DNA from: Aphanomyces cochlioides
Lineage: Eukaryota > Oomycota > Saprolegniomycetes > Saprolegniales > Verrucalvaceae
Direction of reading: 5' to 3'
NCBI GenBank assembly: GCA_019828595.1
Contig: JAHQRK010000001.1
Coordinates: 806,001-870,000, forward strand
Length of the DNA: 64,000 bases
A program made the translations under genes and the position numbers. Numbering within the stretch: position 1 is the stretch's first letter; every line of letters starts with the position of its first letter. Below are positions 31,082 to 62,681 of the stretch, piece after piece. Below the pieces are notes generated by a model. That model saw only the letters and a program-made list of their open reading frames with translations. It was not told where the DNA came from and did no database searches.

Positions 31082-31601
31082 TTATTGCGATTCCTGCTCT
31101 TGCTTCTTGCGTTCCGCTTCCTCCTCAATCTTCTTGGTTGTCTCCTGGATCTTCTCACGCTGCTTCGACACATACTCCGACACTTGCTCGCTGAACTTGC
31201 CGCCGTATTCACTCGCTCGCGACTCGAGATCACTTAAACTTTCACCCCACTTGTTGAGCTTGTCACGGACACTGTCTGCGTCTCCTTCTGAACGAGGCTT
31301 CGACACATACTCCTTGAGCTACAAAAGTCCCTCGAGCAATGAGCCCACATGTCATTGTCGACCATGCTGTACCTCTTCCATCGATTCGTTAGCATTGCCT
31401 TGGACGGAATGGAAGTACTCGGACGCTTTGCTCTTGAACGCCTCGTCATATTCGTCAAACTTTTCCTTGAGCTACACACGTACGTCATTCACGGGTATGT
31501 GAGAAGTAACGTACAGCTGAGATCGACGACTTGGTCGACTCCACGCTGCTGTTGATAGCATCCTTCAAGCTATCCATCGTGCTCTTGTTTTCGTCCGACA
31601 T
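31082..31601 (-). CDS. Helix-array family member A (three exons)
   Basis: Exons 31601-31515, 31471-31373 and 31318-31082 give 140 residues with both introns at phase 0. Exon 1 is the family start (STMDSLKDAINSSVEST). Exon 2 is exactly 33 codons (LKEKFDEYDEAFKSKASEYF...). The terminal exon has the family core KLNKWGESLSDLESRASEYG followed by QVSEYVSKQREKI and a Lys/Glu tail. The protein is charged and helical, with no signal peptide or membrane span. The core resembles apolipoprotein/LEA-like amphipathic helices, but no known family is recognised. It is the first gene of a minus-strand array. Confidence 0.82.
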
Positions 31602-31983
31602 GGCTGATTGAATTGTGAACCAAAAGGGAGCCCGAGCCAAGAAAGCGAGGGTGCAAGTGAAACAACGGGGACTTCCTCGCTTGGTTGTGCTATTGGTTCC
31701 AACGTGCCAGTTGAGATGTGTGCTCGAAAATTCAAACGGGCTCATCAATATCACAACAGTCGCATCAACGTCATCGCGGTTGAAGAGTAAATCGATGGAA
31801 TCAAGATTGACCAAGAGACCAAGGCTGGTCTTCTCGCCATCAAGCTGACAGTGAACGAGACGAAGAACGAATACCTGAACTACAAGGCACCGCTCGTTAC
31901 TGCAGCAACTGCAGCGACTGACTGCATTAGCTCTGCAGCTTCTCCCTCTTCTGCAGATATTACAAGTCATTAATGCACTTAGT

Positions 31984-32478
31984 TTACGAAGACTTGGTGT
32001 CTGGCTCGATGGCCTTGGCAACGTCGTCAATTTGATGGCGTTGCTTGGCTACATTTGTTGTAACTTTGGTCCGTACATTGCCTCCTTCCTTCGCCGCATG
32101 CGACTGGAGTGCGTCGAGGCTGTCGCCCCATTCATTCAATTTCTCACGGACATTCTGAGCGCATGCCTGACGCGTCTCGCCTGATAAACCAGGAACCTCA
32201 GCTAGCTGCGGACGATAAAATCAAGAGGAATACAACGTCGTTACCTGCTCTAAAGCTTCGTTGGCATGATCTTGAACTGCTTGCATGCGGTCGGCTGTCT
32301 TATTGCTCAATGGATCGACGAACTTGTGGCGACTCTCCTTGAGCTAGGCGAAGGATGAGCTCACTGAAAAGTCAACACACGAACCCACCGCCGTGAATGC
32401 GCCAGATTCCAAGTTGATCGAGTCGTTGATACCTCTTTCGAGGCTGCTGATTGCTCTCGTGTCAACTTTCTCGTCCAT
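31984..32478 (-). CDS. Helix-array family member B (three exons)
   Basis: Exons 32478-32389, 32343-32245 and 32205-31984 give 136 residues. The middle exon is again exactly 99 nt (LKESRHKFVDPLSNKTADRM...). The terminal exon keeps VREKLNEWGDSLDALQSHA, but the YG and QVxxY positions of the core have diverged (KEGGNVRTKVTTNVAKQRHQ). Both introns are phase 0. It sits 380 bp from member A and is clearly more divergent than A and C are from each other. Confidence 0.72.
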
Positions 32479-32799
32479 GCTGCTTGAAAACTTGCAAATG
32501 AAAGCGACCTAAACTCCACCGTTAAGTGATTTTTAGTCATTGGCCAGAGTTGGGCAGTTGGTCAGCTTCGCTCTGCGTTCCGATTTTGGGCTGTCGGTGA
32601 ACAATGCGCCTCTTTTGAAGGAGAATTCGTTGGAAAGAGCTCGAGGGACGAGCTCCTCATGCATCGAAGACTATCGTCGAGGTGCTAGTGAGAACGCAGA
32701 CGCTATTACAAGGCTAATCAAGGAGAAAACACTATGAAATCGACGGAGAGACATCTCGAGGACAATTGCATTAAATCTGGCCAACATGAGCTCAGGATC

Positions 32800-33271
32800 T
32801 CATGAGATAGAGAGAGACTTGGCCTTCGACTGTTGCTGTTCTTGCTTTCTGCGTTCCGCTTCGTCTTCAATCTTCTTCGTCGTCTCGTCAATTTTCTCGC
32901 GCTGCTTCGACACATAATCCGACACTTGCTCGCTGATCTTGCCGCCGTATTCACTCGCTCTCGACTCGAGATCTCGCAAACTTTGTCCCCACTTGTGCAG
33001 TCTGTCGCAGACGTTGTCGAGATTTACTTCAACCCATTGACGTCAATCTTTGCGTATTCCATCGATTCGTGGGCGTTCTCTTGGACTGCGTGGAAATACT
33101 CGGACGCTTTGCTTTTGACTTCGTCATATTCGTCAAACTTTTCCTTCAGCTACGAAATGATGAGATCAAGCACGATGAGAGTACCGCTGACAAGGACGAC
33201 TTGTTGGATTCGACGCTGCTGTTGATGACAACTTTGACGCTATCCATGGTGCTTTTGCTTTCTTCCGACAT
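32800..33271 (-). pseudogene. Helix-array family member C, frame broken between exons 2 and 3
   Basis: Exon 1 (33271-33185, MSEESKSTMDSVKVVINSSV) and the exon 2 start (33149, LKEKFDEYDE) are normal. The intron 2 region has been deleted, so exon 2 runs into TAA at 33024-33026. The terminal exon core (RLHKWGQSLRDLESRASEYG, then QVSDYVSKQREKI) continues in another frame to the stop at 32800. By eye its terminal exon is about 85% identical to that of member A, so it is a recent duplicate. A 26-nt intron would restore the frame but is implausibly short. Confidence 0.7.
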
Positions 33272-33576: not shown

Positions 33577-34093
33577 TCAGCCTTCCTTGTTGCGTTCAGG
33601 TTCAGCCTCGAAAATGTCCAAGATATGTTGGATTTCCTTGAGCAGTCTGGCCACATGGATCGCGACAAAATCGTCGTTGGGGCCGCCATCGGTTCTTACA
33701 TGTGGCGCAAGGTCGAGGAGGCTTGTTGACCACTTGCAGAGTCTGGTGCGGATGCACCCAATGTACATGATTCTCGATTCAACTGATAGCGTCGGAGCTT
33801 TGCCAGCGTATTCCTTGAGCTACAAAAATCCAAACACTGAGGCTGAGCACTGGGCTTACCATTTCAAGTGCGTCCTGGGCATCCGTTTGCACTGTCTGAA
33901 AGCAAGCGCAAGTCGTCGACCTGGCGGAATATTCAGCGGAGGTACAGACATGTTTCATCTAGGAAACCCGTCGTCATTGAGATGGGAAGATGAGAAATAC
34001 CAAACGTAGGTTCGAAGTTGACAAGATGTCGAGGTCAGCAATAGCCGCTTGCAGGCTCGCCAAGTCGTACAATTTCTTTCCTGTCGCTTCCAT
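33577..34093 (-). CDS. Helix-array family member D, divergent (three exons)
   Basis: Exons 34093-34001, 33958-33860 and 33819-33577 give 144 residues. The protein sequence is poorly conserved (RTRLCKWSTSLLDLAPHVRT in the core), yet the phase-0 introns and the exactly 99-nt middle exon remain. Exon 1 reads MEATGKKLYDLASLQAAI. It could be a decaying gene, but every splice site is canonical and no stop interrupts it. It is the last array member before the transposon island. Confidence 0.6.
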
Positions 34094-34384
34094 GATCCTG
34101 GCAAATGCTCAATTGACACCCATGTGACAGTTAGACATCTCCTGGGACTGTGGCTGACACTTTGAAAATCTTGGGGGTACAGTGACTACCCTCGTTCATC
34201 GCAAGGACCCCAGGCCTCATTGTTAGACGACCTTCTTCGTGTAAGATGGCCATGGTCTGCCCTCGATTGGTAGTGGAGTCGAAACTTGTTTTGTGGGAGC
34301 TCTCAATGGCGTTTCAGATGTCGTGGAAGGATATATAATGACGGCATGTGTGATTGACTTGAAATCACAAACAATCAGGAAAGT

Positions 34385-36542
34385 TCATTGGTTAATTATG
34401 CTCTTATTACTGACGAATGGAAACGACTTGTTGCTTTTTGAACGCACAGAGGACATTGTACAATCTGCCGTAAGTGATGTCGTCGACTCGCCGGATCCGT
34501 AGAGCAGGCTTATCACTTCAGCGTATGCAATCTCATATATTCCATCAACCTGACCAACGTGTAGGCTATTTATGCCCGATATACCGAGTGGGAGCTTGAT
34601 TTTGCTGTCAACGAAGGCCACCACAGCGCGACTATATCGCATGTGGTGTGGTTTCTTTATATCAGCACTTTTTACCAAATTCTTATAGGGACGAATATGA
34701 GCACGTTCGTCTCCAAAATGCCAAAGCTCCCAAAGTTTTTTTACGGTCAAGTGTGAAGGAAAATTCCATCCTGGGGGCACAAAATGACAGATGGGTCCGT
34801 CATTCCAGCACCAGTTTTCCATTTATCAACGACAGGTGACTCAATTTGTGTAGGGGCAACAGTATTGCCAGCCGTATTGAATTGCCGCATACTCTCAAGT
34901 AAGCTTTGTCTTAGTTCTGCAAATCTCGAATCAATGTCTCTGATAGTTATTGGTGCAACTCCATCTACAACGAAGTTTTGCTTAATCTCTTCAACCACCC
35001 TCGATGCAATCAAATTTGGCATTGATTCAGAAAGATCGGAAACAAACGTAGATAGACTTGACTTGAGAGAGTTTAATTCACATACTAGCGCATTTACTTT
35101 GGCAGCAATAGCTAAATGTGGTGGTACACTAGTAGATTTAATTCCCAATTCTGGAGATATCCCAATGTAAATACTTGTTTTGTGGCGCAAACTATTGAGC
35201 AAATTGTTGTGTGTAAAGACTCTTGATGAAAACAAAGGATGCGATAATTCCAGCTTTGACCTAAGATAATCTTCATGATGAATGAGCGATGCCAACAAGA
35301 ATGGACATGCCGTTTTTACTCCATGTGGATAATTATCAAAGCCGGGGACAATCGTACACCAATATTTAAGGTCCATAAGAGATAGAAGTTCGTTAGAAAA
35401 GTGTGGAGGTAAACAAGCAAAACTCTCATCGTTAAATGGTAGTCCACACACCATGCGACCACATAATTGATCTGCGCCTTCTCCAAAGTGAATGTATCTG
35501 TCTTTTAATTTCCTAAGCTTTGCCCCATGCGCAAAAATACAGAAACAGGATTGGGGCCATTGATCTGCCCAAGGGCATAAGTGCTACTTCCTTTGCGTAA
35601 ACTGTGTGTGCCAATGTCATTTGCTGGACAGCCTAGAGCATGCCTGCCATCATCTCCCAAATTATCAAGAACGCGTCGAAGTATTTTGCCAAATCTATTT
35701 TTGCTGTCAGTGCCACAAAACAACTGATGGAGAACTTTCGATGAATGATTTTCACGGTAAAATAGCAAAACAGCAAGGGCAAGGATAGGACATTGATGTG
35801 GCTCGTATGGGTTAGCGTAAATATGCTTTCCAAATTTATCTGCACCAGTTTGGTCGCCTTTATGGCCCTGCTCCTCAATAATTAATGCATCTTCTTGCCA
35901 ATCTAAATGCTGGAGCATAATAGAATCAACGGAGTCACTTCGGCTCATCAAATTCCACATTAAAACAAAATAGGGCCATGCAAAAAGGATAGTTGACCAT
36001 GATTGACCACTGCTCTCTGGACAAAGCTGCATCAAGTGTAGAGCCAAAAAGGAATATCCTGTCGACTTCAAATGGCGCTTTCCTTCCATGATGTCCATCA
36101 AGCCACGTTTTTTCAAGTCATTTATCAATTTTTCATAGCCATCAAGCATAATTTTCAATTCAGTATTCAATGTAGGATCCAACTCAGGTGACTGGGCTCT
36201 GTACAAATCAACTAAAGCACTGCGATATCCCTTAATACATGATGATGACAAAGGTGTAACCGTGTTCGTGTTGCTTTCGTCGCATTGCGATGCATCCTTA
36301 CATATGTGGCCAAAAAAACCTAAGACAGCATCGTTCGGCAGCGGAATTTTAACGCGATTCTCGAGCTCGTCGACTGTATCAGGATAATTACTGCTCAACC
36401 ACGTCATCATGCGATTGGTCTTAGACTTGTACGTAAGCTTTGTACTGTCATTTGTTCTCTTTTGCTTGAGCTTCAGAGCGACTGCAGACGGATCTTCTGT
36501 TGCCTCGATTGCTACGGGATGTGACTTCTGACCTCTTGGCAT
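34385..36542 (-). mobile_element. Crypton-type tyrosine-recombinase element, frameshifted
   Basis: The main frame (36542-35505, start MPRGQKSHPVAIEATEDP) is a tyrosine recombinase with an N-terminal helical domain, LMSRSDSV (box I Arg) and GTHSLRKGSSTYALG (HxxR box). A one-base slip near 35505 moves the remainder, beginning DRYIHFGEGADQLCGR with the presumed catalytic Tyr, into another frame (35454-34747). A second slip near 34820 leads to FVPPGWNFPSHLTVKKLWEL and IRPYKNLV, resembling the GCR1_C-like DNA-binding tail of Cryptons. Cryptons lack terminal repeats, so the ends are not defined. It is presumably inactive. Confidence 0.8.
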
Positions 36543-37801
36543 TGCCTGTAAAACAAAAATGGCCAATGAGACACCCCGGTAGATCCGTGATTCAACGAAA
36601 TCACACATGGCAAGAATCTTACAACCCGAACAAGAGTACACTGAAATTAAGTCATTTGGAGACGTATCGAATCTAGATTCACGTCAAGTGTGATTGAAGA
36701 AATATCACATCCAATACAAATTCTGAATTGAATAATCACACATGCAGCAGATATAAAGGTTTTGATCGCCGGCAGTGGACGCGGAAACCTGGCAACATCC
36801 GACTTGCTGGCTGTGATTCGTGCTTTGACGGGTCCAAAGTCATTATTTTCGATATCTGCTGGAGTTGCTTCGTTTGATGTCAACAATAGCTGGAAGATCG
36901 ACCGCAAATCTCGAGCTGGAGCTACAATTTGACCAAAAAAATCTCGGACATTAATCAGCCTTCAATCGCCATTGTGTTTCTTCGGCCAGCCTCAGTCCAA
37001 GGCATTCCCGGTTCTCAACTTCCAGCAAGAATTGGATGATAGCTCTTTTCTACCGTGGTGGCCTTTTCATTCGACATGGCAGAAGCATTTAGCAGCATCT
37101 TTGTGTCCTCAGTCGCTTCAAGAAGCTCCAACTCCCGAGCCGGTGCACTCGATTGCGCTTTTGTCACAATCGTCGTTCCTTCACACGTTTCAAATGTCCA
37201 TATCGTCCATCGCCTCTGCAAATCTTTGGATTTGATTGGCCGAAATTTAATTTCTTCAAGATACTGGAACCCATATCTACAACGCCACACATAAAACCAG
37301 ATCAAAACCTTGGGAAAGCCCGATCTTGTCCCTTGCGTTGGCATCATTGGATAAGATCACGCGGTTTCGCTTGTAAATATATCATGCATTTGTCGGATCG
37401 CATATGTGCTATTTGAATGCGATGTGGTTCGTTAGCATGGCAACAACGTTGTTCTTTTATCCGGATCCGGATAATCTTCAAGTTTCAGCATTGCGTGGTC
37501 GGTCAAAGGTTTAATTAATAAACCTATATAGGTTTTATTAATTTAACCCAATAATTGCTTAAAACCAGTTTTAGGTTTTAATTAAAACTTGCCTTTTGAT
37601 GATCAACCGAGTCATCAAATTAATGCTCATTTTCAGTTCACAGTGGTCGAAAGCATCCACGACCCAAATCAGAAATTGATGGGTGCCGCATTAATTTTCA
37701 AAAACGAAGCCAACTCCTTGGAAATGCAGAAACCTTTAAAATTGGATACAAAATGTATTATATTATGCAGTTATACAGATCGAGAGTAAAATCGAACAAT
37801 T
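36543..37801. other. Region between transposons, no confident gene
   Basis: About 1.26 kb. A minus-strand frame of 110 codons (37347-37015) containing RCRYGFQYLEEIKFRPIKSK could splice from a donor at 37053 to a strong TTTTTTGGTCAAATTGTAG acceptor near 36922, but the next exon stops after about 12 codons. This may be the remnant of a gene broken by transposition. A doubled CCGGAT palindrome lies at 37457-37474. The 37.5-kb stretch is very AT-rich. Confidence 0.35.
37457..37474. promoter_or_regulatory. Doubled TTATCCGGATCCGGATAA palindrome
   Basis: An 18-bp perfect palindrome is formed by two overlapping CCGGAT cores with TTAT/ATAA flanks. It is the same motif found upstream of ATCase, eS12 and the K+ channel. 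No intact gene starts next to it. Confidence 0.35.
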
Positions 37802-38673
37802 TTACTGTGAATCGATGTCGGAGATATCCGACAAATCGCTTGAACTACTTGCCACTTCAAAATCATCGTCTCCATCGCTAGGTTGGGCATCGTCAGTAGC
37901 GTCTTGCTTGAATATAAAATCATGCAGCTAGATTAATTCTCTATTTGCCTTGGAAATACAACCAAATATTTGATCCGCCGTCAATGATTTACAAGCATTT
38001 TGCAAACGTGCAAGTACTTCTTTAAATGTCGTCTCACCCTTTACATAGGAACGACCTACTGAACCTTTAACTATAGCCCATACTGTTTCAATAAGTTGCA
38101 ATTTTGAGTGAGGAGGGGGGGGGTAAATAAAACAATATGCCCCTCACATTCAGCCATAGATTTAACAACAGGAACAACATTGTTTTCAATTAATTTGCCA
38201 AGTTTTTCCCAAAGAATAGTTTTCGAATCTGTAGTTAAAAAATCAATTCCATAACGTTTGCAAGCCTCCATCAAAATAATTTTCTTGTTTCCTTACGTGG
38301 TGTATCCCCAGTAAGCACTTTATGATAACTTGCATTATCCATAACAATGCAAGCATTTTTGATATTGTTATTTTTCAATTCTTGGAGTAATATTTTAATT
38401 AAACCATTGAATAAAGTAATTGTTATCAAACATTGCATGATAATCTTTGGGCAATTTGTTAATTCTCTCCACAATATCCAAGCCCAAAATAAGAGATGAT
38501 AATTGTTTTTTACCACCTTCAAAAATATCAGGAGTTCCAATTGATCTAAATTATGCCTGTAGCATCAGAATATCTAGACGTTCCCCCTTAGTGAGGGCTG
38601 CGTCGCGCTGTTTTTTAACATAGTTAACAATTTCATTTTTCAAGTCTTCGTTGATGGTTCGGCGTCCACTCAT
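37802..38673 (-). mobile_element. Decayed DDE transposase of the IS630/Tc1/mariner type
   Basis: On the minus strand the fragment starts MSGRRTINEDLKNEIVNYVK. It continues through broken frames to KNACIVMDNASYHK (second catalytic Asp), RYGIDFLTTDSKTILWEKL, and an LQLIETVWAIVKGSVGRSY stretch where the family has its third acidic residue. At least three frame changes and several stops interrupt it, so it is a dead copy. The AT-rich composition differs from neighbouring genes. Terminal repeats were not found. Confidence 0.65.
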
Positions 38674-39454
38674 TGTACCTACAATTGAGAAATGGCAAAA
38701 TTTATAAAAGAAAACTATTTATCAATTGTTATAGGTATTTATTGTAAGAGTAATTTCTCTAACATTTTATCTCCCTCCAGTTTAGTACTAATTTATAAAG
38801 GTTATTAGATGGAAAGGGAAAAAGAATGCTGGTTTGATATGCATTCCCAATTTTCATCAACATAAGTTGCAAGTTATTGCGTTTCACAGTTTCTGGTTTT
38901 GCACAGAGATACGTGCAACTTTGCACTCGCATTGTGTAAAATTTCGAAAAAAATACCGTATCTGGTATGTTAATTCGGGACCAAAACAAAAAAATAACCT
39001 CTATATATTGATGTTCTAAGATTCGCAGAATATACAATATAATGTAGTTTATAGAATACCATAGGAAATTGTTCGATTTAAATAGACTACACCGCAAAAT
39101 TTGTTACATAAATTGTTCAAGCTTACAATAATATACGTCTATTTTTTAATCAAAAAGCTTTTACTTGAGCTGAGTATTCAAAAATATCTTTTTTTGTTCT
39201 GTCAGTTGGCCATGAAATATTCTTATTGGCTAATTTACACAGACAGAATTTGAATTTGCCATTTTTCAAGATTCTGCCGATCACACACGCATCGACGAGC
39301 CGATGGGGGTCAACCACGTTGCGTACCTTGCGCACCAAGGCACATCGACATACCACGAACAATGAAGACAGTGTGGGGCCAACATTGATGACAGCAACGG
39401 CGGAGACGACAAACAAGAGACTGGTAAGTCAGATTTCATTATGAGTTACGAAAT

Positions 39455-40967
39455 CTAAACAACGACTTCATAGATCACGTCACCAAAAATATCTGTTTCA
39501 ATGCGAATTGCGTCTGCTTCCCTTGCAAGCTCGACAATTGAATCAAACACGTCGTCTCCGTCGTTGCTGTCGTCGTCTATTGGCTCTTCACTGGCTTCAT
39601 TGTTCGAGGTATTGGCAATTAGCCCACACAATTCAAAGCCATTAATGGTAGTCTTAGTGCTCAAGGTATTCCACGCGTTTGACGCCCATTTGACAAGATC
39701 TCGGCGAGTCGGTGCACAAAGCTTGAATGCTCCCGTACTAGGGTCATGATTTTTTACAGATTTTTGTAAGTGGTGAATCCAATTATTCTTCATCATTGTC
39801 TTAAAAGGTTTGATCCAAGAAACATCCGCTGGCTGACAAACCCAAGTGAATCCAGGTGGGATTTTTCAAGAATCACATTTAATGACGACGCCAATTCAAG
39901 GACTTGGGGGCAAAAATGTGGAGAAAAATCATCCCACAGCAGTAAAATTGGCTTCAAATTTTTCCTGGCACGGTAACCAAAGTGATATTTGATAAACTCT
40001 AATGAAATTTTTGTGTTCCACCAAGCTGTAGGATTTCCATAGAGTTGTGCAGAGAATTCGTCTTGAATTTCAACAATCTCTTTCCATACAATCTTGCCAA
40101 AGCCGTTACGTTGATCAAGGTTTTCGAGTACATTTTTCTTCACTGTACTTTTGTTTTTAGGACAATAAACAAGGGATATTTTTTACCCTTGGAGTCGGCA
40201 AGAAGCATCGCAGTTGCTCGTTGCTTCTCTTGACCACTCGTTCGTATCCACACACGTTTTTCACCCACAGCATTGATGGTTTTCCTCCCTGGATATTCGT
40301 AATTCACTGCTGTTTGGTCGGCATTCAGGACGTCGGATATATCATTTTCTTGGATCAATTTCAATACTTTTTCACTGAAGCTTTTCAACGCTTCATCTCC
40401 TTCGGCAGCGGTTTTGTTTCCGCATCGAGTTTGACATCGCATGGATAACTCATGTCGTTTCATAAACGATTTAATCCAATGTCCACTTGCTTTAAATTGA
40501 CACGGCAGTAGATTCTTCTCGCTAGCAACCTGCAAAGCATACTGTTGTAATAAAAGATTGCTAACCGGCACACCGTCAAGACGGTGTCCAACAACCCAGT
40601 CAGCAATTCGTTTTTCAGTCTCGATATCGAGAACTGTGGCTTGGCCGATGCGGCGATTCGACATCTTCTTTGCAGAGGCAGGGTTTTTGCTTTTTTCGAT
40701 TGAGTTTCGATTGCGAAACCAAGCTTGAATTTTCTTTTTCGTCGATACCTCTCGCTTTCCACTCATGTCAGGGAAGTACTTCGACATTGCACTCGACAGA
40801 CCAGCCACACCGAGCCCATTCTTTATGTACTCTTGAACGACCAGCCACTTAAATGAATAATCAGTAAATGTATGTGTGTATTTCTTGGGCCCTTTGCGAG
40901 ATTTGCCTTTGACTGACGGTCGACCCGAAGCAAGACGATGATGCTTTCGCATGTCAGCGAAAACCAC
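39455..40967 (-). pseudogene. Transposase of the outer pogo-like element, two frameshifts
   Basis: The first frame (40967-40140) has a helix-turn-helix region, a CENP-B-type DNA-binding domain (IADWVVGHRLDGVPVSNLLL, HWIKSFMKRHELSMR) and the first catalytic Asp in VLNADQTAVNYEY. After a slip near 40140, the second frame carries GNPTAWWNTKISLEFIKYHF and LLLWDDFSPHF. A second slip near 39860 precedes CQPADVSWIKPFK (third Asp) and the tail to 39455. The DDD arrangement fits the pogo branch of Tc1/mariner. Confidence 0.82.
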
Positions 40968-41077
40968 GAATGGCAGTACAACCTCAGAAATCTTATTTTA
41001 TTGATTCTGATAAGTATTGAATGTGCACAGGTCATACAGGGTATTATATTTGGTCGTCGACAGACACCGAAATAACA

Positions 41078-41105
41078 TACCGTATTCCTCTTATCGTTTC
41101 GGACA
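41078..41105 (+). repeat. Left terminal inverted repeat and TA duplication of the nested element
   Basis: TA at 41078-41079 is followed by a 26-nt repeat (41080-41105) beginning CCGTATTCCTCTTATCG. It is a perfect reverse complement of 42982-43007. Confidence 0.9.
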
Positions 41106-43007
41106 AGTGATATACACAAATCACATGACAGACAAACAGCCGTATTTATTATTTCCTTTCGGACATACAAATAACAAGTTCAAATTTTCTAGAGCAAGAA
41201 ACCTCAAATTATAAATAATAATAGAATATTATATTAGAAAGAATTATAGAATTTGAGGAGTTGATATCATATACAAACAATGAATTGATTTTACATGTCA
41301 TATCTATCGATATCATGCACTGGGTCAATGGTATCGTCCACTGCACAATTGTTCATCAAGGTGGCCAAAGTGTCATCGTCGACATATTGGTCCTGCTCTG
41401 CTTCATCGTCCTCACAACGGTCAATGAGTTTACACTTCGCAAATCCCTTCACAATTGTCGTTGAGGGCAAATCAGACCACGCATTTGAAATCCATGATAC
41501 GAGAGTGCTTCAACTTGGTCCCATCAACTTTAAGCTTGATCCTTGAGTCTTTTGAACATGCACTTGGCGTCTTATTTCATTCAGCCAACATTGCCGCAGT
41601 GTATTCTTCAGTTGTTTAATCCACGCTACATCCGCAGGTTGGCATATCCATGTATACCGCGGTGGAACTTTCTCTAGAATAACATCCAACTCATCAGCTA
41701 GTTTCATCACATCCTGTGTAAAATGGGCTGAAAAGTCATCCCACAACAACAAAACTTTCTTCCAAGCTCGGTCAGGCCGGTCTCCAAAGTGATAACGCAA
41801 AAACTCCATTGATATCTGCGAATTCCACCACGCAGTTGGATTTCCGTAGATAACACATCCATGGCGTTCTTGCAAAGTTTTGACTTCTCTCCATACTTGA
41901 AGTCCAAATCCATTTCGTTCAATGAGGTTCGCTTGAACCATCTCTGGGCATCTTGACTTCGTGGTCGTCAAAACCAAAAAGAGCGGATGCTTGCCGCCAT
42001 TTGAGTCACCCAAAAGCATGGCAGTGGCACGATCCTTTGTCTTCCCAGAGCACTTTATCCACACCGTCTTGTCAGCTGTACTGTGGATTGACTTCGTCGG
42101 AAGGTACTCATAGTTGACCCCTGTTTGATCAGCGTTGTAGACCACATCGATGTCGTGCATTTCCACAAGTTCACGTACACGTCGAGAGAATTTGGCAAAT
42201 GCTTCTTGTCCGTCTTGAGGTCTCTCTTGACCAGCCCTTGTTCGGCTCCGCACGGAGAGTCGATGGCGCCTCATGAATCCCTTGGACCAGCTCCAACCAG
42301 CATAAAATTCGTTTGCTTTGAGACCTGCGTCCGTGGCAGCCTCAAGGGCCATACACCGCAGCATTTGTTCGGTCACGGGCACGCCGTCCTTTCGCATTGA
42401 CAAGACCCATCGAGCCAACTGCTCCTCTTGCATAGGGAGAGTCGACCCTGACCAAGTTGACGTCAGCATTTCATTCTGGCTGTATGCGGATCGGCAGCCT
42501 TGGCTGCTAATTGGTTTCTCTGTCGTTGCCACGAGTATATCTTTTTTCTTGTCGTCTCGCGCGACTCACGAGGCAGGTGACCGAAGTGTACGTCTAGCGT
42601 CTTGGCCATTCCGTGCTGGTCGAACGTATCGATCACTTTTTGCTTCATTCGGTAATCCACATGATGGTTCTTGAACTTGTTGGAGGGCTTCTTGGGCCAA
42701 TTCTTGAACACAGGTCGCCCATTTTCAGCACGGGTCATATTCTCGAATGGTTTTGCGAGTGCAAGAGACTTAAAATGGCGCCAAATCGACGTTAATCGAT
42801 AGTAGCCAATGAAATCCCGCGAAAACCCATAATTTTACCTCTTTAAATGAATATTTTATCAAGATATCGAGGTAAATATAATATATTGGAGGATTTTTGG
42901 GTTGGAGGTTTACCTTATTAACTTAATATTTCTACAGGATGGATAAGTATTATATTTTACAGGAGTCCGAAAGGAATAGTCTGTCCGAAACGATAAGAGG
43001 AATACGG
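41080..43007 (-). mobile_element. Nested pogo/CENP-B-like element with perfect 26-bp inverted repeats
   Basis: A 1,928-bp element with perfect 26-bp terminal inverted repeats (41080-41105 and 42982-43007) and TA target duplications on both sides (41078-41079, 43008-43009), as expected for Tc1/mariner/pogo. A subterminal repeat CCTTTCGGAC also occurs near both ends. It lies exactly within the right inverted repeat of the outer element. Perfect repeats indicate recent insertion, although its transposase is already broken. Confidence 0.9.
41291..42738 (-). pseudogene. Transposase of the nested pogo-like element, one frameshift and one stop
   Basis: It starts MTRAENGRPVFKNWPKKPSN at 42738, with HTH wording VIDTFDQHGMAKTLD. 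A slip near 42470 leads to the long frame with CENP-B-type helices, VVYNADQTGVNYEYLP, GNPTAWWNSQISMEFLRYHF, LLLWDDFSAHFTQDV and CQPADVAWIKQLKN. An in-frame TGA at 41510-41512 interrupts the C-terminus, whose homology (TLVSWISNAWSDLPSTTI) continues to a TAA at 41291. It is about half identical by eye to the outer copy. Confidence 0.85.
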
Positions 43008-49285: not shown

Positions 49286-50464
49286 TTAGCTGTGCCGCTT
49301 GGGCTTTTTATTGCGTTTCGTGGCCTTGATGGCGTTTTTCTGCTTCTTGTCGCCGCCTTTCGTGTCTTTCTTCTTGGGATCGCGCTTCCGTTTCTTGCCG
49401 CGCGTCTGTTCAAGCAAATCTGCCGGCAGCGTCACCAGTTTCTTCTTCTTGCGGGCTTTCTCCTTGACTTCGACTTGCGCTTTGTTCGCATGACCGACCA
49501 GGACGCGCAAATCGCGCAACATTTCAGGACTCACGGGATACAATGGCTCGGCCGACGTCCACTTTGCGGCATCCCAGCCGACGAAATGCTGCACGCCGTC
49601 CGTCGCGACGACTTGAGCTGGAATCGTGCATGCGCTGGCATCGTCTGACGGCCGGACAAAGACAAACGTCTCGCTGTCCCAGATGGGAAAGCTTCCTTTC
49701 GAGAGGACTTTCTTGTTGGAATAGCCAGGATAGAGACATCGGTCAAAGACGACGGAGCCGGCATGTTTGAGTCCATTGCCTTCCGCGAGACCGACGATGC
49801 CCCACTGGCCAAACGGCGGCTTGGTTTTGTGCGTTACGTGGACTTCGCCGCCTGGACCCAAGACAGTCGGAACGGCGCGGAAGAAAGCTTCAATGAGCGC
49901 TTTGTTTTCGTCCATTTCGTTGTTTTGACCATCGGCGCCGTCGGGCATGCGGACACATGGGAAATTCCAGATCACACGATCAAATGTCGCTCCATTGAAC
50001 GCAGCTTTCATTGCCGCGGCGTCTGTGGCATCAATTCCATGGTGGACAGTCGCGCCGGCGTCTTGAAGGCGAGAGAGAATCGTTTCGCCGTCTGGATATG
50101 TCTCCACGACTGTATCGCGTGATTCATGGGAAGTCGCTACCAATTGCGATGCGTCGGTCAAGTACTTGAGCAGTGCAAGCGAGAAGGAAAAGTTGCCGTC
50201 TCCAAGCGTCAGAACTTTGTTCGACGGCTGAATCATGACGTTCCGGGGAACGATTTCATGGCTGGCGTCGCCATCGTCGTCATCGTCGGCTTCTTTGTCT
50301 GGATTGACGAAACGCGGACATTGCTCAGGACGCAGGTTGGGCAAAACATCTTTGCCGCCGTAGATAAAGAGCTTATAACAGCACGGCCGACAGAGACTGA
50401 GCGTGCACTGGAGTGTGTTGGCCTGGACAAACAGGTTGGTCGTCGCGCGGTCCGTCGTGGCCAT
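49286..50464 (-). CDS. BMT5-like 25S rRNA (uridine-N3) methyltransferase domain protein (DUF2431)
   Basis: A single exon of 392 residues. The Rossmann-like start VLTLGDGNFSFSLALLKYL is the SAM-binding motif of this family, followed by VATSHESRD, GATVHHGIDAT, FDRVIWNFPCVRM, GEVHVTHKTKPPFGQWGI and YPGYSNKK, which match the DUF2431/BMT5 pattern. An N-terminal segment with several cysteines (LQCTLSLCRPCC) could bind zinc. The C-terminus is a Lys-rich nucleolar-type tail (RGKKRKRDPKKK). Yeast BMT5 methylates U2634 of 25S rRNA. It converges on the channel gene with an 18-bp gap. Confidence 0.9.
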   Translation of the reverse strand: MATTDRATTNLFVQANTLQCTLSLCRPCCYKLFIYGGKDVLPNLRPEQCPRFVNPDKEADDDDDGDASHEIVPRNVMIQPSNKVLTLGDGNFSFSLALLKYLTDASQLVATSHESRDTVVETYPDGETILSRLQDAGATVHHGIDATDAAAMKAAFNGATFDRVIWNFPCVRMPDGADGQNNEMDENKALIEAFFRAVPTVLGPGGEVHVTHKTKPPFGQWGIVGLAEGNGLKHAGSVVFDRCLYPGYSNKKVLSKGSFPIWDSETFVFVRPSDDASACTIPAQVVATDGVQHFVGWDAAKWTSAEPLYPVSPEMLRDLRVLVGHANKAQVEVKEKARKKKKLVTLPADLLEQTRGKKRKRDPKKKDTKGGDKKQKNAIKATKRNKKPKRHS

Positions 50465-51088: not shown

Positions 51089-51621
51089 CTACTCTCCCTC
51101 TTGCGTTTCCTTGTAATGATCGGCTTCCCCTTGGAGCTTGTGCACAATGTTGTCCATTTGCTGGCGTTGCATCGCTGCATATTTCTTCACCTGGTCGCCA
51201 AACTTGCTGTCGTAGTCGCTTGCTCGCTCCTCCAGGGCATGCAGACCGTCGTTCCATTTCGTCACGGCGTCACGGACGCTGTCGTTGTACGATTGAAGCG
51301 TCTTGTCCGAAATGGGAGGATACAGCGTTGCAAAGTCTTGGAGCTGCGCGACACAGCCATGAGAGAACGTCTCCAACCACTGGATTTACCTTGTCGACGG
51401 CTTTGTTGGCGTAGTCTTCGACGGATTCAAAGTACTCGGCCGTCTTGGTCTTGAACTGATCGTCGTACTCGTCGTACTCTTGCTTCAGCTACAAGCTCCA
51501 TCACAAGCAACACTCAAAGGTAGAAGCAGACCTGCGCAAATGAAGACTTGAGCGAGTAAATCGCTTGGTTGATGGACTCCTTGAGGCCGTCGCAGCCGTA
51601 CGGATCGTGCTGCGGGTTCAT
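51089..51621 (-). CDS. Helix-array family member E (three exons)
   Basis: Exons 51621-51532, 51488-51390 and 51343-51089 give 147 residues. Exon 1 is MNPQHDPYGCDGLKESINQA. The middle exon is exactly 99 nt (LKQEYDEYDDQFKTKTAEYF...). The terminal exon carries VTKWNDGLHALEERASDYDS, then QVKKYAAMQRQQMD. All introns are phase 0. There is no signal peptide. It opens the second array block, in the same orientation as the first. Confidence 0.8.
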
Positions 51622-52076: not shown

Positions 52077-52760
52077 CTACAACTCGTCTGCCGCTTTGCC
52101 TTGCTTGTATGCTTTGAGCTTCTCCTCGAGCTCTGCGTGCTTGGCCACGTCAGCGATATGTTGGCGCTGCTTTGTCACGTAGTCCGCCACTTGCGCGCGA
52201 AAGTCGTCGTCGTACACACTCGCTTGCGATTCCAACTCGTCCAAGCTTTCGCCCCACTTGGTCAGCTTGTCTCGAACGCTTTCCACGTAGTCGCTGCCCT
52301 TCTCGCGTGCACTCCCGGCGTACTCTTGGCTCGTTTCCCGCACACTGTCTGCGTACTCTTGGCTCTTTTCCCGCGCTTTCGACGCGGTGCTCGACGCATA
52401 ATCCTTGAGCTACAAGTAGAGTCAGTCAACAATATGAAGAACGCGCAAGAGTCCAACATCTTCCATCGATTGCTTGGCGTTGTCTTGCACCGAGTTGAAA
52501 TACTCTGACGCCTTGGCTTTGAACGCCTCGTCATACTGGTTGTACTTCTCCTTGAGCTACACAAACACAGTCACGCAACGCATTGCACTGCAACGTACCA
52601 CCGCCACAGACGCTCTCGTCGAATGAATCGCGCCGTCGATCGCTTCCTTGATGCGGTCCATCGCTCCTCGGTCGTCATAAGAAGATCCTTCCGTCGTAAT
52701 GGGTTCTTCGAGGCCAAAGATAAGCGGCAGGAGCGTCACGAGATAAATGAACTTGACCAT
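52077..52760 (-). CDS. Helix-array family member F with N-terminal signal peptide (three exons)
   Basis: Exons 52760-52599, 52556-52458 and 52409-52077 give 197 residues. Unlike its relatives, it begins with a hydrophobic leader (MVKFIYLVTLLPLIFG) that looks like a secretion signal, followed by the usual DRIKEAIDGAIHSTRAS start helix. Exon 2 is 99 nt (LKEKYNQYDEAFKAKASEYF...). The terminal exon has three short repeats (KSQEYADSVRE / TSQEYAGSARE / KGSDYVESVRD, an 11-residue unit) before KLTKWGESLDELESQASVYD and QVADYVTKQRQHI. It is the clearest link between the Trp-core type and 11-mer repeat proteins. Confidence 0.83.
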
Positions 52761-53433
52761 CGTTGCTGTCGCCTTGGAAGCTGCTTCAAAACTGAGAGCT
52801 CAACGCCGAAAGCACTCTTGGGAAGCATGCGAGTGTGGTTGCAACGGCTCCATCGGTATTGGGCAGCATGAGGCAGTTGGGATTCGTCTTGAGACACAGC
52901 GAACGGCACGGCCGTCATCATCCACAAGATCGAGGGAGGGAACATTACGACAATCCCCTGCGTCCTCCTTGCCGCCTTGTGTCCTTCGTGGACGCGTTGA
53001 ACTCGACATTGGCGGCGCGTTGTTCTCTGTTGCAGTGGTGCCTTTGCACTTCCTTGTCCTCGACAAACCATGCAAGTCAGAAGTCAATCCATCCCCTCGA
53101 CTTGTAACTAATCGATCGTGTCGTCGCTTCCTTCATCTTGTCGCTTCCGGGCAAACATCCAACGCGATCTTTGCCCTGAACAGCATGACAGTAGCAGGCT
53201 CTTGGAGCTTATCGCGTCTCGCGGACACAACGCGCCATCTCTCGAGACGCTCCAAGGTGTCATCAACTTCACGGTCGAACACGAATGACTTGTCGAATCC
53301 TCTAGCGCTGTCTCCTTCCCGTCGTACTCTTACCCTTCCATCTTTTGTTCCGCGCTGCTGCATTCTCTGTCGTTGCACGAACAAGATGCATCTTAATAAA
53401 GGCTCCATTAAGTTGAAAATGCACACAAGACTC

Positions 53434-56400
53434 TTAGGCGTATTGCGCCTTGACGTCGTCCTTCCCAGCCGCAGCTTCGTGCTCCTTGGTTTGGCCCGCA
53501 GCTTCTTTCTTCTGTCCTTCGACATGTTGCATTTCCTTCTCCCCATGAGCTTCATGCTTGGACGATTCCTCCTTCATCTCTTCTTCTTTCTTGGAGGCTT
53601 CATGCTTCGACGACTCTTCCTTCTTCTCCGTCGATCCTTGCTCTTCTTTCTTGGAGGCGTCATGCTCTGTCGTCTGGTCAGAGGCGTGCTCTTCCATCTT
53701 CTCGCCCGTTTCTTCCATCTTCTCTCCGGTCTTCTCCTCCATCTGCTTCAACGCGCTCTTGATTTGCTCGCGCTGGCTAGAGATATACTCGCCGACTTGT
53801 TTCTTGAACGACTCGCCATAGTCGCCGGCTTTCTCCCCCAACTGGTCGAGTTTGTCGCCCCAATCCTTCATCTTCTTACGAGCACTCTCCATGTACTCTT
53901 GGCGCTTCTCGTCCGCGTTGGATGGCAGATTGGCGGCGAAATCTTTCATCTACACTGGAGATATGTCCTCATCGTCACTGCAGCTAAGTTGTACCTCGCT
54001 CATCGACTCTTTCGAGTAGTCTTGGATCGACGTGAAGTATTCCGATGTCTTCTCCTTCAACTTGTCGTCATACTTGTCGTACTGTTCCTTGAGCTACCGC
54101 CGTCTCCATGAGCTCCTCCTGTCATCTCCATCGACTCACCGTATTGAAGCTCGACTTGGCCGAGTCGGTCGCATTACTGAACATATCCTTGACATTGTCC
54201 TTGACGGCGTCCATCGCTTCGCTTTCCTTCTTCTTGGCTTCTTCTGCAATGACTTCCTGCTGTTTCTTCTTGCGTTCGGCATTTTCTTCAATCTCATGCA
54301 AGGCATCTGCAATCTGCTGGCGTTGCGTCGAGACGAAGCCGCTCACTTGCGCTTGGAAAAGGCCACCATAGTCGCTTGCGCGCGTTTCCAAGTCATCGAG
54401 CGACTTGGACCAGCTCGACAACTTGTTGCGAATGGCTTCCATCGTCGCTTGACGCGTTTCTTCCGCTTGCGACGGCGCATCAACCGCAAACGTCTTCATC
54501 TACAGGGAATCAAGTCAGCGCATGCCTTCCACGGCCATCTAGACGTACGTCTTCCATCGTTGCATGCGAATAGTCTTGGACAGCTTTGAAGTACGACGAC
54601 GCTTTCGCCTTGAATGCTTCTTCGTAGCTGTCGAATTGATGTTTGAGCTACCGCCGCCATGAGATTCCATCAACTTGAGCAACTTACCCCAGCAAGACTT
54701 GACGTCGTCGAGTGATACGCATTGCCAAACATGGCGCGCAATCGTTCCATCGAGCTGTGCGAACCTTCATCGGGCGTTTCCTGGCCTTCCATTTCCTTCA
54801 ACGTCTTCTTGATTTGCTCGCGCTGGCCAGAAATGTACTCGCCGACTAGGTCCTTGAACGAGTCGCCATAGTCGCCGGCTTTCGACTCCAACTTGTCGAG
54901 CTTCTTGCCCCACTCGTTCATCTTCTTACGAGCGCTCTCCATGTACTCTTGGCGCTTCTCGTCCGCCTTGGACGGCGCATTGGCGGCCATATCCTTCAGC
55001 TACAAAAGAAGATCAGGCTCCAAGTCGGCGGCAAGTCCGTTCTACCTCGCTCATCGATTCCGTCGAGAAGTCTTGGATCAACGTGAAGTACTCGGATGTC
55101 TTCTCCTTGAGCTTGTCGTCGCACTTGTTGTACTGCTCCTTGAGCTACCACACGAGCAGTTGACTCTCGACACTGTTGGTGACAACTTACCGTGTTGAAG
55201 CTCGACTTGGCGGAGTCCATGGCGCTGCTGTACATGTCCTTCATGCTGTCCATGGCTTGGGATTCCTTCTTCTTCCCTTCCTCAGCGGCGGCCTCTTGCT
55301 CTTTCTTCTTTTCTTCCGCATTCTCTTCCATCTCATTCAGCGCGTCCTTGATATACTTGCGCTGTTTCGACACATAGTCCCCGACTTGCTTTTGGAACTC
55401 GCCGCCATATTCGCTGGCTCGCGACTCCAAGTTGTCGAGCGTCTTGCCCCATTCCGTCAGCTTGGAACGGACGCTCTCCACGTATTCCTGACGCTTTTCA
55501 TCCGCTTGCGATGGCGCATTTGCCGCAAAGTTCTTGAGCTACAGCAGGAAACGTCAATGCCTTCAACTTCAACACATCTACCTCCTTCATCGACTCGCTC
55601 GCTTGGTCTTGCACGGCTTCAAAGTACGACGCCGCCTTCTTCTTGAAAGCGTCGTTGTATGCATCGTACTGTTCCTTCAGCTAAAGGATCCATTAGCTCC
55701 ATCTCTATCGAGTCCAACGACGTACCGCGGCAAAGCTTGAAGTTGTCGACTCCACGGCGCTACCGAGCATTCCCTTCAAGCGGTCCATCGACGACGACAC
55801 CATCGACTTGGACTCTTCCCCGGTGGATATTTGTGCCTTTGTTCCGCTGGCCATCGACTCTGACGAAGGCTTTTGTTCATGTTCCGTCTTCAAATCTTCA
55901 GCATGGGTATCGAGTTCCTTCATGGCGTTCTTGATGTCCTGATGCTGCGTCGACACGTAATCGTCGACATGTTGTTGGAATTGCGCTCCATAGTTGCCGA
56001 CTTTCGACTTGAGTTCGTCCAGCGCTTGGCTCCACACTGTCATTTGGTTGCGAATGTTATCAAGGAGCGCTTGGCGTGCCTCGTTCGACTGCGCCGGCGC
56101 ATCTTCTGACAGTGCTTTCAACTAGACAAACAAGTTCAGCTATGGTCTATCTTGGCAGCATCTACCTGTTTGACCGCCTCATCGGCGTGGTGGCGCACCG
56201 ACATAAAGTAGTCCGACGCTTCTTCCTTGAACGCACCTTCGTACTCTTCAAACTGCTGCTTGAGCTATCGTCGCGGAATCGTCAGTGGCGCTGCAGGTCG
56301 ACCGCCAAGACTTACCACTGCGAGGTTGGATGTGGCGGAATACACGGCGGTCTTGAGCATTTCGTCGTACTTTTCAGCGTGGCCCTTGGCTCCTTCCGTC

Positions 56401-57184: not shown

Positions 57185-58485
57185 CTAGTAATGGTGCTTG
57201 CCCTTGTTGTAGTCGGCTTGCGCTTCGACTCTTTCGCGGACATGCGCGCCGTAGTCCTTGGCGGTCGACTGCAAATCTTCCCACTCCTCGTTCCCCTTGG
57301 CCATCTTCTCGTGGGCTTTTTCACCGACAACGTCGCGCTTCTCCTTCATCTTGGATCCAATCTTCGATGCAGTCTCCTTCGTCGACTTGCCTTCCTTGGT
57401 CATCTTGTCTTTGGCTTGTTGTCCAGTCTCCTTGGTCTTGTCGCGGACTTGACCGCCATACTCTCTCGCCTTGGCTTCGTACTCGTCCATCTTCTTGCCG
57501 GCCTTGTCCATCTTTTCATTCGCTTTGTCGGTCATCTCGTCGCGCGTTTCCTTCATCTTGGAGCCGGCCTTTGACGCTGAATCCTTGACCTAAGCAGCGC
57601 ATCAGACACGGCGACATCATGGGAGCTCAAATACTTTTTCCGCCGCGTCATTGGCGCCTTCCTTCATGGATTCCATCGTCTCGGACGTCTTGTCCTTGAT
57701 CTTGGACCCTGTCTCGGATGCCGACTGCTTCATCTATAGCAAAGATTCCAATGCGTGCCATCGTCATTGCTTCTTACATTGTCGGCGGATTCCTTGGTGC
57801 CTTCTTTCATCGAGTGCATCGTGTCGGACGTCTTGTCTTTGACCTTGGCGCCCGTGTCCGATGCCGACTCTTTCATCTACGCAGTGAACTCTCCCTTCAA
57901 CACTGCAATGCAACGATCCGATTACATGCTGCCACGATTCCTTGGTGCCTTCCTTCATGGAATGCATCGAGTCCGACGTCTTCTCCTTGACATTATGGCC
58001 GAAGTCGCTGATCTTGTGCTTGACGTTGCTGAGCGATTCCTTGGCAGAATCGACGCCAGAGTGGAGCTTCGACTTGAGTTTCTCCATCGTACTCATGTCT
58101 TCATCATGCGAAGTCTTGACGGCGCCATGGCAAGTCGAGCCGTACATTGGAATGCTCTGGTCGCTGCTGGTACACGCCGTGCCAGTAGGCAGCTCACTCG
58201 TATCGCTTCCTGCCGGCGCCGTTGTGTAGACTTCGACCTAGATGGGCGGGGGTAAGGCATCCAACCTCTCGAGTTTGTTACGTCATGGGTTTCTTCCGTC
58301 GGTCGGTATGGATCTGTCGACTTGTCGCTCGCATGCAGCTTGGATTTCATCTACACATCGATTGAGCGGTCGTTAGGGAAGGCGGAGAGTACGTTGTCTA
58401 GCGTCGACTTGGCGGCATCAATGCCAGAAGTAACGGCGTCTTTCAAGCTGTCAAACGTGCTCTTGTTATCGCTTTGTTGGCTCAT
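57185..58485 (-). CDS. Helix-array family member H, LEA-like 11-mer type (six exons)
   Basis: Exons 58485-58393, 58350-58282, 58237-57926, 57876-57778, 57733-57635 and 57589-57185 give 358 residues, all phase 0. Exon 1 (STFDSLKDAVTSGIDAAKST) is the array's common start. Exons 4 and 5 are exactly 99 nt and each is three 11-residue repeats (MKESASDTGAKVKDKTSDTM type). The terminal exon continues with KETGQQAKDKMTKEGKSTKE and ends GKHHY. The pattern is that of group 3 LEA (LEA_4) proteins, which are disordered until dried or bound to membranes. No signal peptide is visible. Confidence 0.82.
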
Positions 58486-58701: not shown

Positions 58702-59222
58702 TTAGATGTGAGAAACATATAGCGCGTCCAAGTGCTCGTTGGCGTGTTGCAAATGCTCGGCAATGCGTTGCTTCTGTTCGACGAGGAGCAGCCCGACATT
58801 CGCATTGCACTTGGCGTCGTAGGCGTCCGCTTCGCCCTTGAGGGTTTCCACTTGGTCGTTCAGTTTCGCCACCGACGCCTTGACGTCTTTCAAGTAGATC
58901 CGGCGCGTTGCTTCGACTCGCTCTGGCAACTTGTCAGCGCTGGTCTGGAGCTACCGAACGCACATGTTAGCAAGATCCAAGCCATGAGATGAACCTCTTG
59001 AACGGCTTGGTCGACGTTGTCCAAGGAGTCCTTGAAGAACTTGACCGCCTTTTGGTTTGTCTGCGCATCATGCGCGGCAAGTTGTGACTTGAGCTACAGA
59101 CAGACGTTAGAACGTGTGGTTGTGGTTGCAGCATATACCGCCTTCAAGTAGTCCGTTGACGCTGTGAGGGAGGCAAGGATGGAGGCCTTGAGGCTGTCGA
59201 AGGCGGCTTGGTTGGTGAACAT
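58702..59222 (-). CDS. Helix-array family member K (three exons)
   Basis: Exons 59222-59139, 59093-58995 and 58950-58702 give 143 residues. Exon 1 is MFTNQAAFDSLKASILASLT. The middle exon is 99 nt (LKSQLAAHDAQTNQKAVKFF...). The terminal exon has LPERVEATRRIYLKDVKASV, AKLNDQVETLKGEADAYDAK and EQKQRIAEHLQHANEHLDAL. Together with L and M it forms a third subtype in which the Trp of the core is missing. It lies between the two LEA-like members H and I. Confidence 0.8.
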
Positions 59223-60712: not shown

Positions 60713-60904
60713 CGCAACTTGGAAACTAAGACACAGGAGCCTGGCGACGGTGGCGCATTGCACCGTTTGGCGCGAGAAGACGGTTGATAACGTCGTTAGC
60801 TCCAACGATCTGTTCTGGATTACCCAAACGACCACGTGCCACTCGAGTGAACAAATGGGACGCGGCCCACGAGTTTTTATTGAGCGCGATGCTTACGAGA
60901 AGAC

Positions 60905-61440
60905 TTAGGCGCTGTTGTGGTGGTGGAAGACGGCATTGAGGTGTTCCTTGGCGTGCTGGAGGTGGTCATGGATGTGTTGCTTCTGTTGGCTGAAGAAATG
61001 CGCGACGTTCGAGTTGAACTTGTGGTCGTATTCGGCGGCTTGCGTCTTGAGGTGTTCGAGTTCGTCTTCCAACTTGGCCAGCGACGCCTTGACTTCTTCC
61101 AAGTGTTCCTGGTTGGCTTCTTCGACTTGTCCTGGCAGCTTTTCCGCCTTTCCATGAGCTACACGATGTCCACCACGTGACTCCAAGGTCCATTCAAGTC
61201 GCTCTACCTCGTGGAATGCATGGTTGGTCGTCTCCAACGATTCATGGAAGAATTCGCCGGCCTTGTGGTTGAATTCCGCGTCGTGGGCGGCAATGTTCTT
61301 GTTGAGCTACAGAGTCAAACCCACGTCAGTCGTCACGTCCAGAGGGAGCGGCGTACGTTGGTCAAGTAGTCGGACGTCGACTTGATCGAGTCGTTGACGG
61401 ACGTCTTGAAGTAGTCAAAGGCAGTTTGAGCGGCGGACAT
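60905..61440 (-). CDS. Helix-array family member L, second intron apparently retained
   Basis: Exon 1 is 61440-61357 (MSAAQTAFDYFKTSVNDSIK). The second exon begins at 61306 (LNKNIAAHDAEFNHKAGEFF). A GT-AG intron equivalent to intron 2 of its relatives exists (61207-61159, 49 nt), but splicing it puts the terminal exon out of frame. Reading straight through gives 161 residues and the conserved tail EKLPGQVEEANQEHLEEVKA, FNSNVAHFFSQQKQHIHDHL. A one-base loss near the old acceptor, compensated by keeping the 3n+1 intron, explains this. Alternatively the gene is a pseudogene. Confidence 0.68.
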
Positions 61441-62145
61441 GGCAAATTGGAAAATGAACGCTCGAGTTCATGGCGATCGCCTTGGATGTGGACTCCGATC
61501 CGGCACGAGGCGTCATCCCGTTGTATCTTCAAGTTTATATCCTGCCGTGATGGACGCAGTCCAATGAAGTTGGCGTCTTTGTCCATGGAGGAAGTCTTTG
61601 AGTAGCTCGCGCTCGAATCTTCTTGGAGTCCAATCGTGACGACACAATCACGCACGTCACGACTGACTATTCCGTGTCCACTCGGACGCTTGGACTCGAA
61701 ACTGTCACGAGCTAGCGCTCTCTGTCACCGCACGGACGGACAAAGAGTGATCGAGTCGTCTCTTTGGCTTCCAGCACAAAACCTCCACAGGGGATTGAGA
61801 CTGTAGCGTCTAGTTCCAACGTGTAAGCTCTACTTGATGCGGCGCTGCCTTGCCCTTCTTTGTGTTCTCGTGAGCTGCAAGAGCCCGAGTCTTTCGGGAT
61901 TCCACCCATTGGCAGCCCATCGCCTGTCGCGAATCTGAAACGAAGGGGGACTTTATTGCCACCCGCTCGGAAGTTCTCCATGATGTCTAGCTTTGGAAGA
62001 GCCTTTTATGGATATGGTGAACCCCATGAGCATGGAGCTGCCCTTGGGGTCTTCTTTCAGTTAGAACTGCGTCAGTCGACTCCTTATGGGGCTGGTGAAA
62101 GGCGCCGATGAGAGCGCAATGCAGTGGAGAAGATGGAATGGAAGG
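61441..62145. other. Spacer between members L and M
   Basis: About 700 bp. A plus-strand frame of 83 codons (61860-62111) has no recognised homology and no splice partners. It probably holds the promoter of L and the 3' flank of M. Confidence 0.35.
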
Positions 62146-62681
62146 TCATGTTGATTCACATAGACAAAGGCAAAGATGGAGATACTTAGACATGACCGAG
62201 TCGAGGTGTTCCTTGGCTTGGTGCAAGTGTTCATCGATGTGTTGCTTTTGTTCGTTGAAGAAGTGGCCGACGTCTGAGTTGAACTTGGCGTCGTAGTTGC
62301 CCGCTTGGGTCTTGAGTTGGTCCACTTGGTCGCCCAACTTGGCAAGTGAGACCTTGACGTCCTCCAGGTGTTGCTTGTTGGCCGCGTCGACTTGACCTGG
62401 CAACTTTTCCATGTTTTCCTTGAGCTACAAGTCCACAATGAGCACACGGAACGTAGGTAGGAGGAGCTCTCACCTCATGGAGAGCGTGGTTGGTATTGTC
62501 AAACGTCGTCTTGAAGAATTCTGACGCGTTTTGGTTGAAGTCGGCGTCGTGGGTGGATTTCAACTCGAAATGGAGTTGTGGGGTGGAAGCGACGTACGTT
62601 GTCCAAATAGTCGGATGTCGACTTGAGCGAGGCGTTGACGGACGTCTTGAAGTTATCGAAAGCAGTTTGAGGAGCCGACAT
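62146..62681 (-). CDS. Helix-array family member M (three exons)
   Basis: Exons 62681-62598, 62563-62474 and 62424-62146 give 150 residues. Exon 1 (MSAPQTAFDNFKTSVNASLK) and the terminal exon (MEKLPGQVDAANKQHLEDVK, FNSDVGHFFNEQKQHIDEHL) are close to those of L. The middle exon is 90 nt, three codons shorter than the array standard, because the acceptor (TTTCGAG) lies downstream of the usual place; intron 1 is only 34 nt. The last nine residues, with three Cys, replace the normal ending. Confidence 0.78.

Follow-up and report, generated by a model that had tools for sequence, protein, structure and literature searches.

The 64,000-nucleotide window analysed here, from the oomycete Aphanomyces cochlioides, which attacks plant roots (contig JAHQRK010000001.1, positions 806,001 to 870,000; all coordinates below are those of the window) carries on its minus strand, from 62681 to 31082, a tandem family of genes for helical proteins built from a start exon, a middle exon of mostly 99 nucleotides (nt) and a terminal exon. 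With a probability of roughly one half, this is a lineage-restricted family of putative lipid-surface proteins that grew by duplication of the 33-codon exon. The evolutionary unit would be a symmetric (phase 0-0) exon, three 11-mers long, at a single locus. Only tentatively do we propose in addition that an architecture of the apolipoprotein and perilipin type arose independently in an oomycete, and that one 33-codon exon gave rise to compact four-helix bundles as well as to open 33-mer helices like those of perilipin 4. If both forms indeed derive from one exon, the cluster shows exon duplication converting one into the other and offers a natural series linking two lipid-coat designs, the bundle and the open 33-mer helix; candidate lipid-surface proteins for oomycete biology would thereby be named. 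The cluster is also a clear case of an exon length that equals a structural repeat (3 x 11).

Gene models, exon lengths and relatives in Aphanomyces

A first-pass annotation of this DNA had counted eleven apparently intact genes and two broken copies. In the rebuilt gene models ten genes look intact, two copies (C and K) are damaged or doubtful and there is one remnant; the arrangement as a minus-strand tandem family with start, 99-nt middle and terminal exons was borne out. The members are the following:

31082..31601, minus strand: gene A, exons 31601-31515 (87 nt), 31471-31373 (99 nt) and 31318-31082 (237 nt); 140 residues; Trp-core type
31984..32478, minus strand: gene B, exons of 90/99/222 nt; 136 residues
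32800..33271, minus strand: damaged copy C, with start, middle and terminal parts close to A
33577..34093, minus strand: gene D, exons of 93/99/243 nt; drifted member
51089..51621, minus strand: gene E, exons of 90/99/255 nt; 147 residues
52077..52760, minus strand: gene F, exons of 162/99/333 nt; 197 residues
53434..56420, minus strand: gene G, 11 exons in five modules with one 99-nt exon each; 843 residues
56865..56987, minus strand: J-like remnant, similar to the final exons of that gene (identity at 103 of 117 aligned bases)
57185..58485, minus strand: gene H, exons of 93/69/312/99/99/405 nt
58702..59222, minus strand: gene I, exons of 84/99/249 nt; 143 residues
59756..60712, minus strand: gene J, exons of 90/69/177/99/99/186 nt; 239 residues
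60905..61440, minus strand: doubtful copy K, two exons (84 and 99 nt) in keeping with the family
62146..62681, minus strand: gene M, exons of 84/90/279 nt

Counted over all modelled units except the damaged C, the middle exon is exactly 99 nt long in 12 of 13 (A, B, D, E, F, the five of G, I, K and M), M having 90 nt; start exons measure 84-162 nt and final exons 186-516 nt. That M and the broken C deviate had been noted before, and in C a middle exon of deviating length is followed by a damaged stretch ahead of the terminal part. The claim that they alone deviate does not extend to H and J, in which the second exon measures 69 nt and the four 99-nt exons are later repeats. In K the family reading frame is lost past the predicted second splice, and the remnant at 56987-56865 contains a stop inside the one frame read. 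The stretch 56420-53434 is a single gene, G, in which four terminal exons are fused to the start exon of the following module. A plus-strand open frame of 454 codons (52747-54111) lies opposite this gene and looks like the shadow of a lysine/glutamate-rich coding strand.

All 35 modelled introns are 34-54 nt long, with 31 TAG, three CAG and one GAG acceptors, and retention of any of them would break the reading frame. The chain finder admitted phase-0 introns only, that is, phase 0 was imposed and not compared with other phases, and the public A. euteiches models therefore matter for the junctions. P0001, P0002, P0003 (partially) and P0004 match the junctions of M, I, A and D, respectively; these public Aphanomyces models appear to be gene predictions and not proof of splicing. 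P0009 equals P0004 minus exactly the 33 middle-exon residues, with five substitutions in addition, and P0005, P0007, P0008 and P0010-P0013 differ from the window models at one boundary or another or are truncated. Gene M has a first intron of 34 nt with the GAG acceptor and a C-terminus altered relative to P0001, its A. euteiches counterpart; because P0001 has 33 residues where M has 30, the 90 nt of M look like a local change. P0006, a public A. cochlioides model, is letter-for-letter the read-through chain of K. This copy is odd in the public models of both species, P0006 reading through an intron and P0007 dropping a part; the damage or unusual splice may predate the species split.

Between the two species, identity amounts to 112 of 115 aligned residues for A (P0003), 132 of 144 for D (P0004) and 141 of 143 for I (P0002). 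Locus numbers in A. euteiches follow the order of the window (AeMF1_000218 for I and 000221 for M; LEN26_005436 for K, 005438 for I and 005439 for H), which together with the sequence likeness suggests that the cluster as such is conserved. In the protein collection the family profile found 10 matches among 2401 candidates and H found three among 1488, every match being from A. euteiches or A. cochlioides; G as query gave no match there. Searches of the genome itself (76.2 Mb in 94 contigs) with A, H and I yielded, among the matches listed, none beyond this cluster. The homology search reaches relatives with common 5-residue words, and within these limits the family is apparently restricted to two Aphanomyces species so far, in agreement with the first-pass annotation. 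A search of the open-access literature, covering listings and abstract starts, returned no description of such an oomycete family.

Amphipathic period, 33-residue repeats and duplication

Each 33-residue unit is composed of three 11-mers. Nine of the ten proteins have their amphipathic peak at 97.25-99.25 degrees per residue, corresponding to a period of about 11/3, and at most one of 1000 shuffles was as high (for H and J the helix regions only were used). The period is not 7/2: over 16 units of 99 nt, spectral power amounts to 3.57 at 98 degrees versus 1.24 at 103 degrees. A coherent moment extends across 254 proline-free residues in H, where the best angle of 98.75 is slightly off the exact 98.18, and across all 843 residues in G (best angle 98.25 degrees). 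Protein H repeats itself at lags of 11, 22, 33, 44, 55 and 66 residues with a maximum at 33 (identity 0.367), the lag-11 identity being 0.247 versus a shuffle mean of 0.092. Ten units (those of M, D and K not included) were slid cyclically against each other; shifts of 0 and 22 gave the top scores and a shift of 11 a smaller peak. The terminal exon contains a further 33-mer, whose alignment to the middle exon is best in register, scoring 24.6 versus 12.1 at shift 22, 4.6 at shift 11 and at most 4.6 otherwise. Moments of the 99-nt units, D excluded, lie between 0.31 and 0.44; a table in PMC5889406, the calculation of which may differ in detail from ours, gives 0.39 for ApoA-I, 0.35 for Plin3, 0.30 for synuclein and 0.257 for Plin4.

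Insertions or deletions other than in multiples of 11 residues would rotate the hydrophobic face, and the exon length may be kept for this reason. The earlier suggestion that 33 codons represent a helical register of 3 x 11 residues agrees with the period and with the in-register repeats. Constancy of length is not special to this exon: in an alignment judged by eye, the start and terminal exons are also nearly indel-free in their helical parts, variation being found in linkers and tails.

The comparisons show duplication at three levels, namely of whole genes, of whole modules in G and of single exons in H and J. Within G, units 3 and 5 lie closest to each other, with synonymous divergence (dS) of 0.435 and non-synonymous divergence (dN) of 0.129. 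In every computed pair with finite dS, dN is smaller than dS, and many dS values are near or above 1. H and J are joined to the family by their start exons (H versus A, 0 of 2000 shuffles; J versus A, 1 of 2000) and both bear a second start-type helix ahead of the repeats; J is split by an intron at a 33-mer boundary that is uninterrupted in H. The drifted member D retains the 99-nt exon, as stated earlier. Its membership rests on the terminal exon, for which the score against A, E or G2 was reached by 0 of 2000 shuffles; the middle exon bears a weak likeness to the family (5 of 2000) and the start exon could not be distinguished from chance in shuffle tests against seven members.

Likeness to known proteins, predicted function and rival explanations

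PF01442 (Apolipoprotein A1/A4/E) matches eight of the nine proteins scanned with Pfam (eight at E <= 0.01 and A at E <= 1; B, C and K were not among them) and is the top Pfam match in six. Scores are 93.1 bits for G, the only one to exceed the curated cutoff of 90, 57.2 for H, 41.5 for F, 31.5 for A, 31.2 for J, 28.2 for E, 19.4 for M and 16 for I; D has no match at E <= 0.01. The best PDB chain found with the family profile is ApoA-IV (E 9.4e-8). The former statement that the family cannot be placed is thus not supported with respect to kind, descent being another matter; the PF01442 profile matches all scanned members except D, above the cutoff for a single one. Outside the cluster, the genome's best exon-level match to PF01442 is a single open frame at L022 633-1286, which encodes a strongly cationic protein of KIKERVKGAGKK-type repeats; its N-terminus is hydrophobic, and the protein may be secreted and act on membranes.

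For P0001 together with seven family rows, AlphaFold predicts a four-helix bundle (helices 3-39, 43-67, 75-108 and 112-142) with a mean predicted local distance difference test score (pLDDT) of 78.9 and a predicted template modelling score (pTM) of 0.72, the five models spanning 51.8 to 78.9. The 33-residue exon, placed on P0001 by sequence, covers residues 29-61, from the last part of helix 1 across the turn and through the greater part of helix 2. In the predicted bundle it is hence a hairpin and not one straight helix, and its ends lie inside helices.

Exchangeable apolipoproteins (ApoA-I, ApoA-IV, ApoE) resemble the family in the amphipathic 11-mer period, the bundle predicted for one ortholog and the profile matches. 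They differ in that the Aphanomyces proteins are from an oomycete, short and, as judged by hydropathy, mostly without a signal peptide, that their 33-mers can be exons of their own and that only one of nine passes the PF01442 cutoff; vertebrate apolipoprotein genes are reported to have a common 33-codon block in the third exon (PMC6854765). The likeness to perilipin 4 lies in the tandem, weakly hydrophobic 33-mers of three 11-mers in H and J. Two consecutive 99-nt exons in each of these genes encode tandem 33-mers without indels, as in Plin4, the 29 tandem 33-mers of which are described as 'entirely without deletions or insertions' (PMC5889406). However, H and J have far fewer repeats, several of them separate exons, their units reach a hydrophobic fraction of only 0.18-0.24 versus 0.35 in Plin4, and the Aphanomyces family also includes members of the bundle type. 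No match to the perilipin family PF03036 was found in eight proteins at E <= 0.01 or in A at E <= 1; a search of the genome for PF03036 gave no match, nor did its control match anywhere. According to PMC5889406, perilipins and apolipoproteins share 11-mer helices and helix bundles, their evolutionary relation not being clear.

Insect apolipophorin-III is a five-helix secreted bundle. Weak matches to its profile (PF07464; H 29.8, M 23.2 and A 22.2 bits) and the presence of the locust protein among the fold matches (rank 46, TMq 0.58, E 1.0) constitute a likeness, yet all nine scanned proteins stay below the 36.3-bit cutoff. The A. euteiches ortholog of H, P0011, carries precomputed PF07464 and PF01442 annotations.

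With moderate confidence, we predict that the family works like an apolipoprotein or perilipin helix. The short members would be soluble four-helix bundles that open to lay their helices on lipid surfaces in the manner of exchangeable apolipoproteins, and G might act as a string of five such bundles. H and J, with their proline-free and weakly hydrophobic 33-mers, would lie as a single long helix over lipid droplets or membranes, coating them in the way of perilipin 4. F may act at lipid surfaces outside the cell: its hydrophobic N-terminus is signal-peptide-like and has the highest 12-residue hydropathy of the family (2.53, the next being 1.21). By the same measure the other nine intact-looking proteins lack a comparable N-terminus.

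Several observations weigh against a lipid-surface family derived from one exon. D has no amphipathic period, 86 of 1000 shuffles reaching its value. The match of middle and terminal exon has moderate significance under phase-preserving permutations: 748 of 20000 reach the score of the 33-mer alone and 93 of 20000 that of 54 columns. The 21 start-helix columns before the terminal 33-mer contribute -2.1 and thus show no match of their own, and the repeats of H and J are not significantly similar to the middle exon (2013 of 20000). Reversed decoys score against PF01442 with 34.1 (G), 46.0 (H), 22.4 (F), 24.0 (A) and 22.4 bits (E) and class-preserving shuffles with 30.7 (G), 27.4 (H) and 26.2 bits (F), and PF01442 also matches in 10 of 14 prokaryotic control genomes; the likeness in the short members is therefore in good part the 11-mer pattern itself. 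Full shuffles of G and H did not match PF01442, and the forward score lies above the decoys in all five proteins, by a clear margin chiefly in G (a single decoy of each kind per protein). The resemblance to PF01442, which is in part common to 11-mer helices in general, places the family by kind and may reflect shared descent or convergence. The P0003 model is poor (mean pLDDT 60.3, pTM 0.41), and Foldseek returned no PDB match at E <= 0.001. Finally, the four units of H and J, with a charged fraction of 0.36-0.42, fall in their hydrophobic fraction below every helix in the table of PMC5889406 (0.32-0.72). For H and J, this scarcity of hydrophobic residues weakens the perilipin interpretation and favours proteins of the late embryogenesis abundant (LEA) type.

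Group 3 LEA proteins consist of 11-mer repeats that are charged and rich in serine and threonine. The family could accordingly comprise protectants of this type, whose disordered 11-mer chains fold upon desiccation and protect the membranes and proteins of resting spores. The 11-mer period is in line with such a role, and so are the repeats of H and J, which are charged, rich in serine and threonine, poor in hydrophobic residues and free of proline, a weak match of LEA_4 (PF02987) to reversed H and the score of G against the NCBIfam sll1863 stress response family (33.0 bits, cutoff 35). For the family as a whole it is nevertheless rather unlikely, since LEA_4 matched none of the nine forward sequences (eight at E <= 0.01, A at E <= 1) and since hydrophobic residues form a patterned core in the Trp-core members and a bundle is predicted for the related P0001. 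Helical scaffold or coiled-coil proteins of a generic kind, without a role at lipids, would fit the fold matches, which are generic helix bundles, and the weak sub-cutoff matches to many unrelated helical families; the period near 11/3 instead of 7/2 makes them improbable. Quite improbable, too, are secreted host-adaptation proteins diversified for interaction with plants, F being exported and the others its cytosolic relatives. Matches confined to two plant-infecting Aphanomyces species and the N-terminus of F would agree with this, and small secreted proteins of unknown function are a known feature of Aphanomyces (PMC8780586). Yet the confinement was seen in a search limited to relatives with common 5-residue words, nine of ten proteins lack a start comparable to that of F, dN stays below dS wherever dS is finite and some orthologs, such as that of I, are highly conserved.

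Neighbouring genes

Transposon genes at 34385-42760 lie between D and E and divide the cluster. They include Tc5-type DNA-binding matches at 42532-41510, together with a DDE endonuclease, and at 40967-40140, besides other transposon-like open reading frames without a Pfam match. Also within the span of the cluster, a gene for a BMT5-like rRNA methyltransferase (49286-50464; PF10354, 154 bits) may serve as a synteny anchor. Beyond the cluster, the minus strand encodes the large RNA polymerase subunit 2 (Rpb2-type) at 26339-29194.

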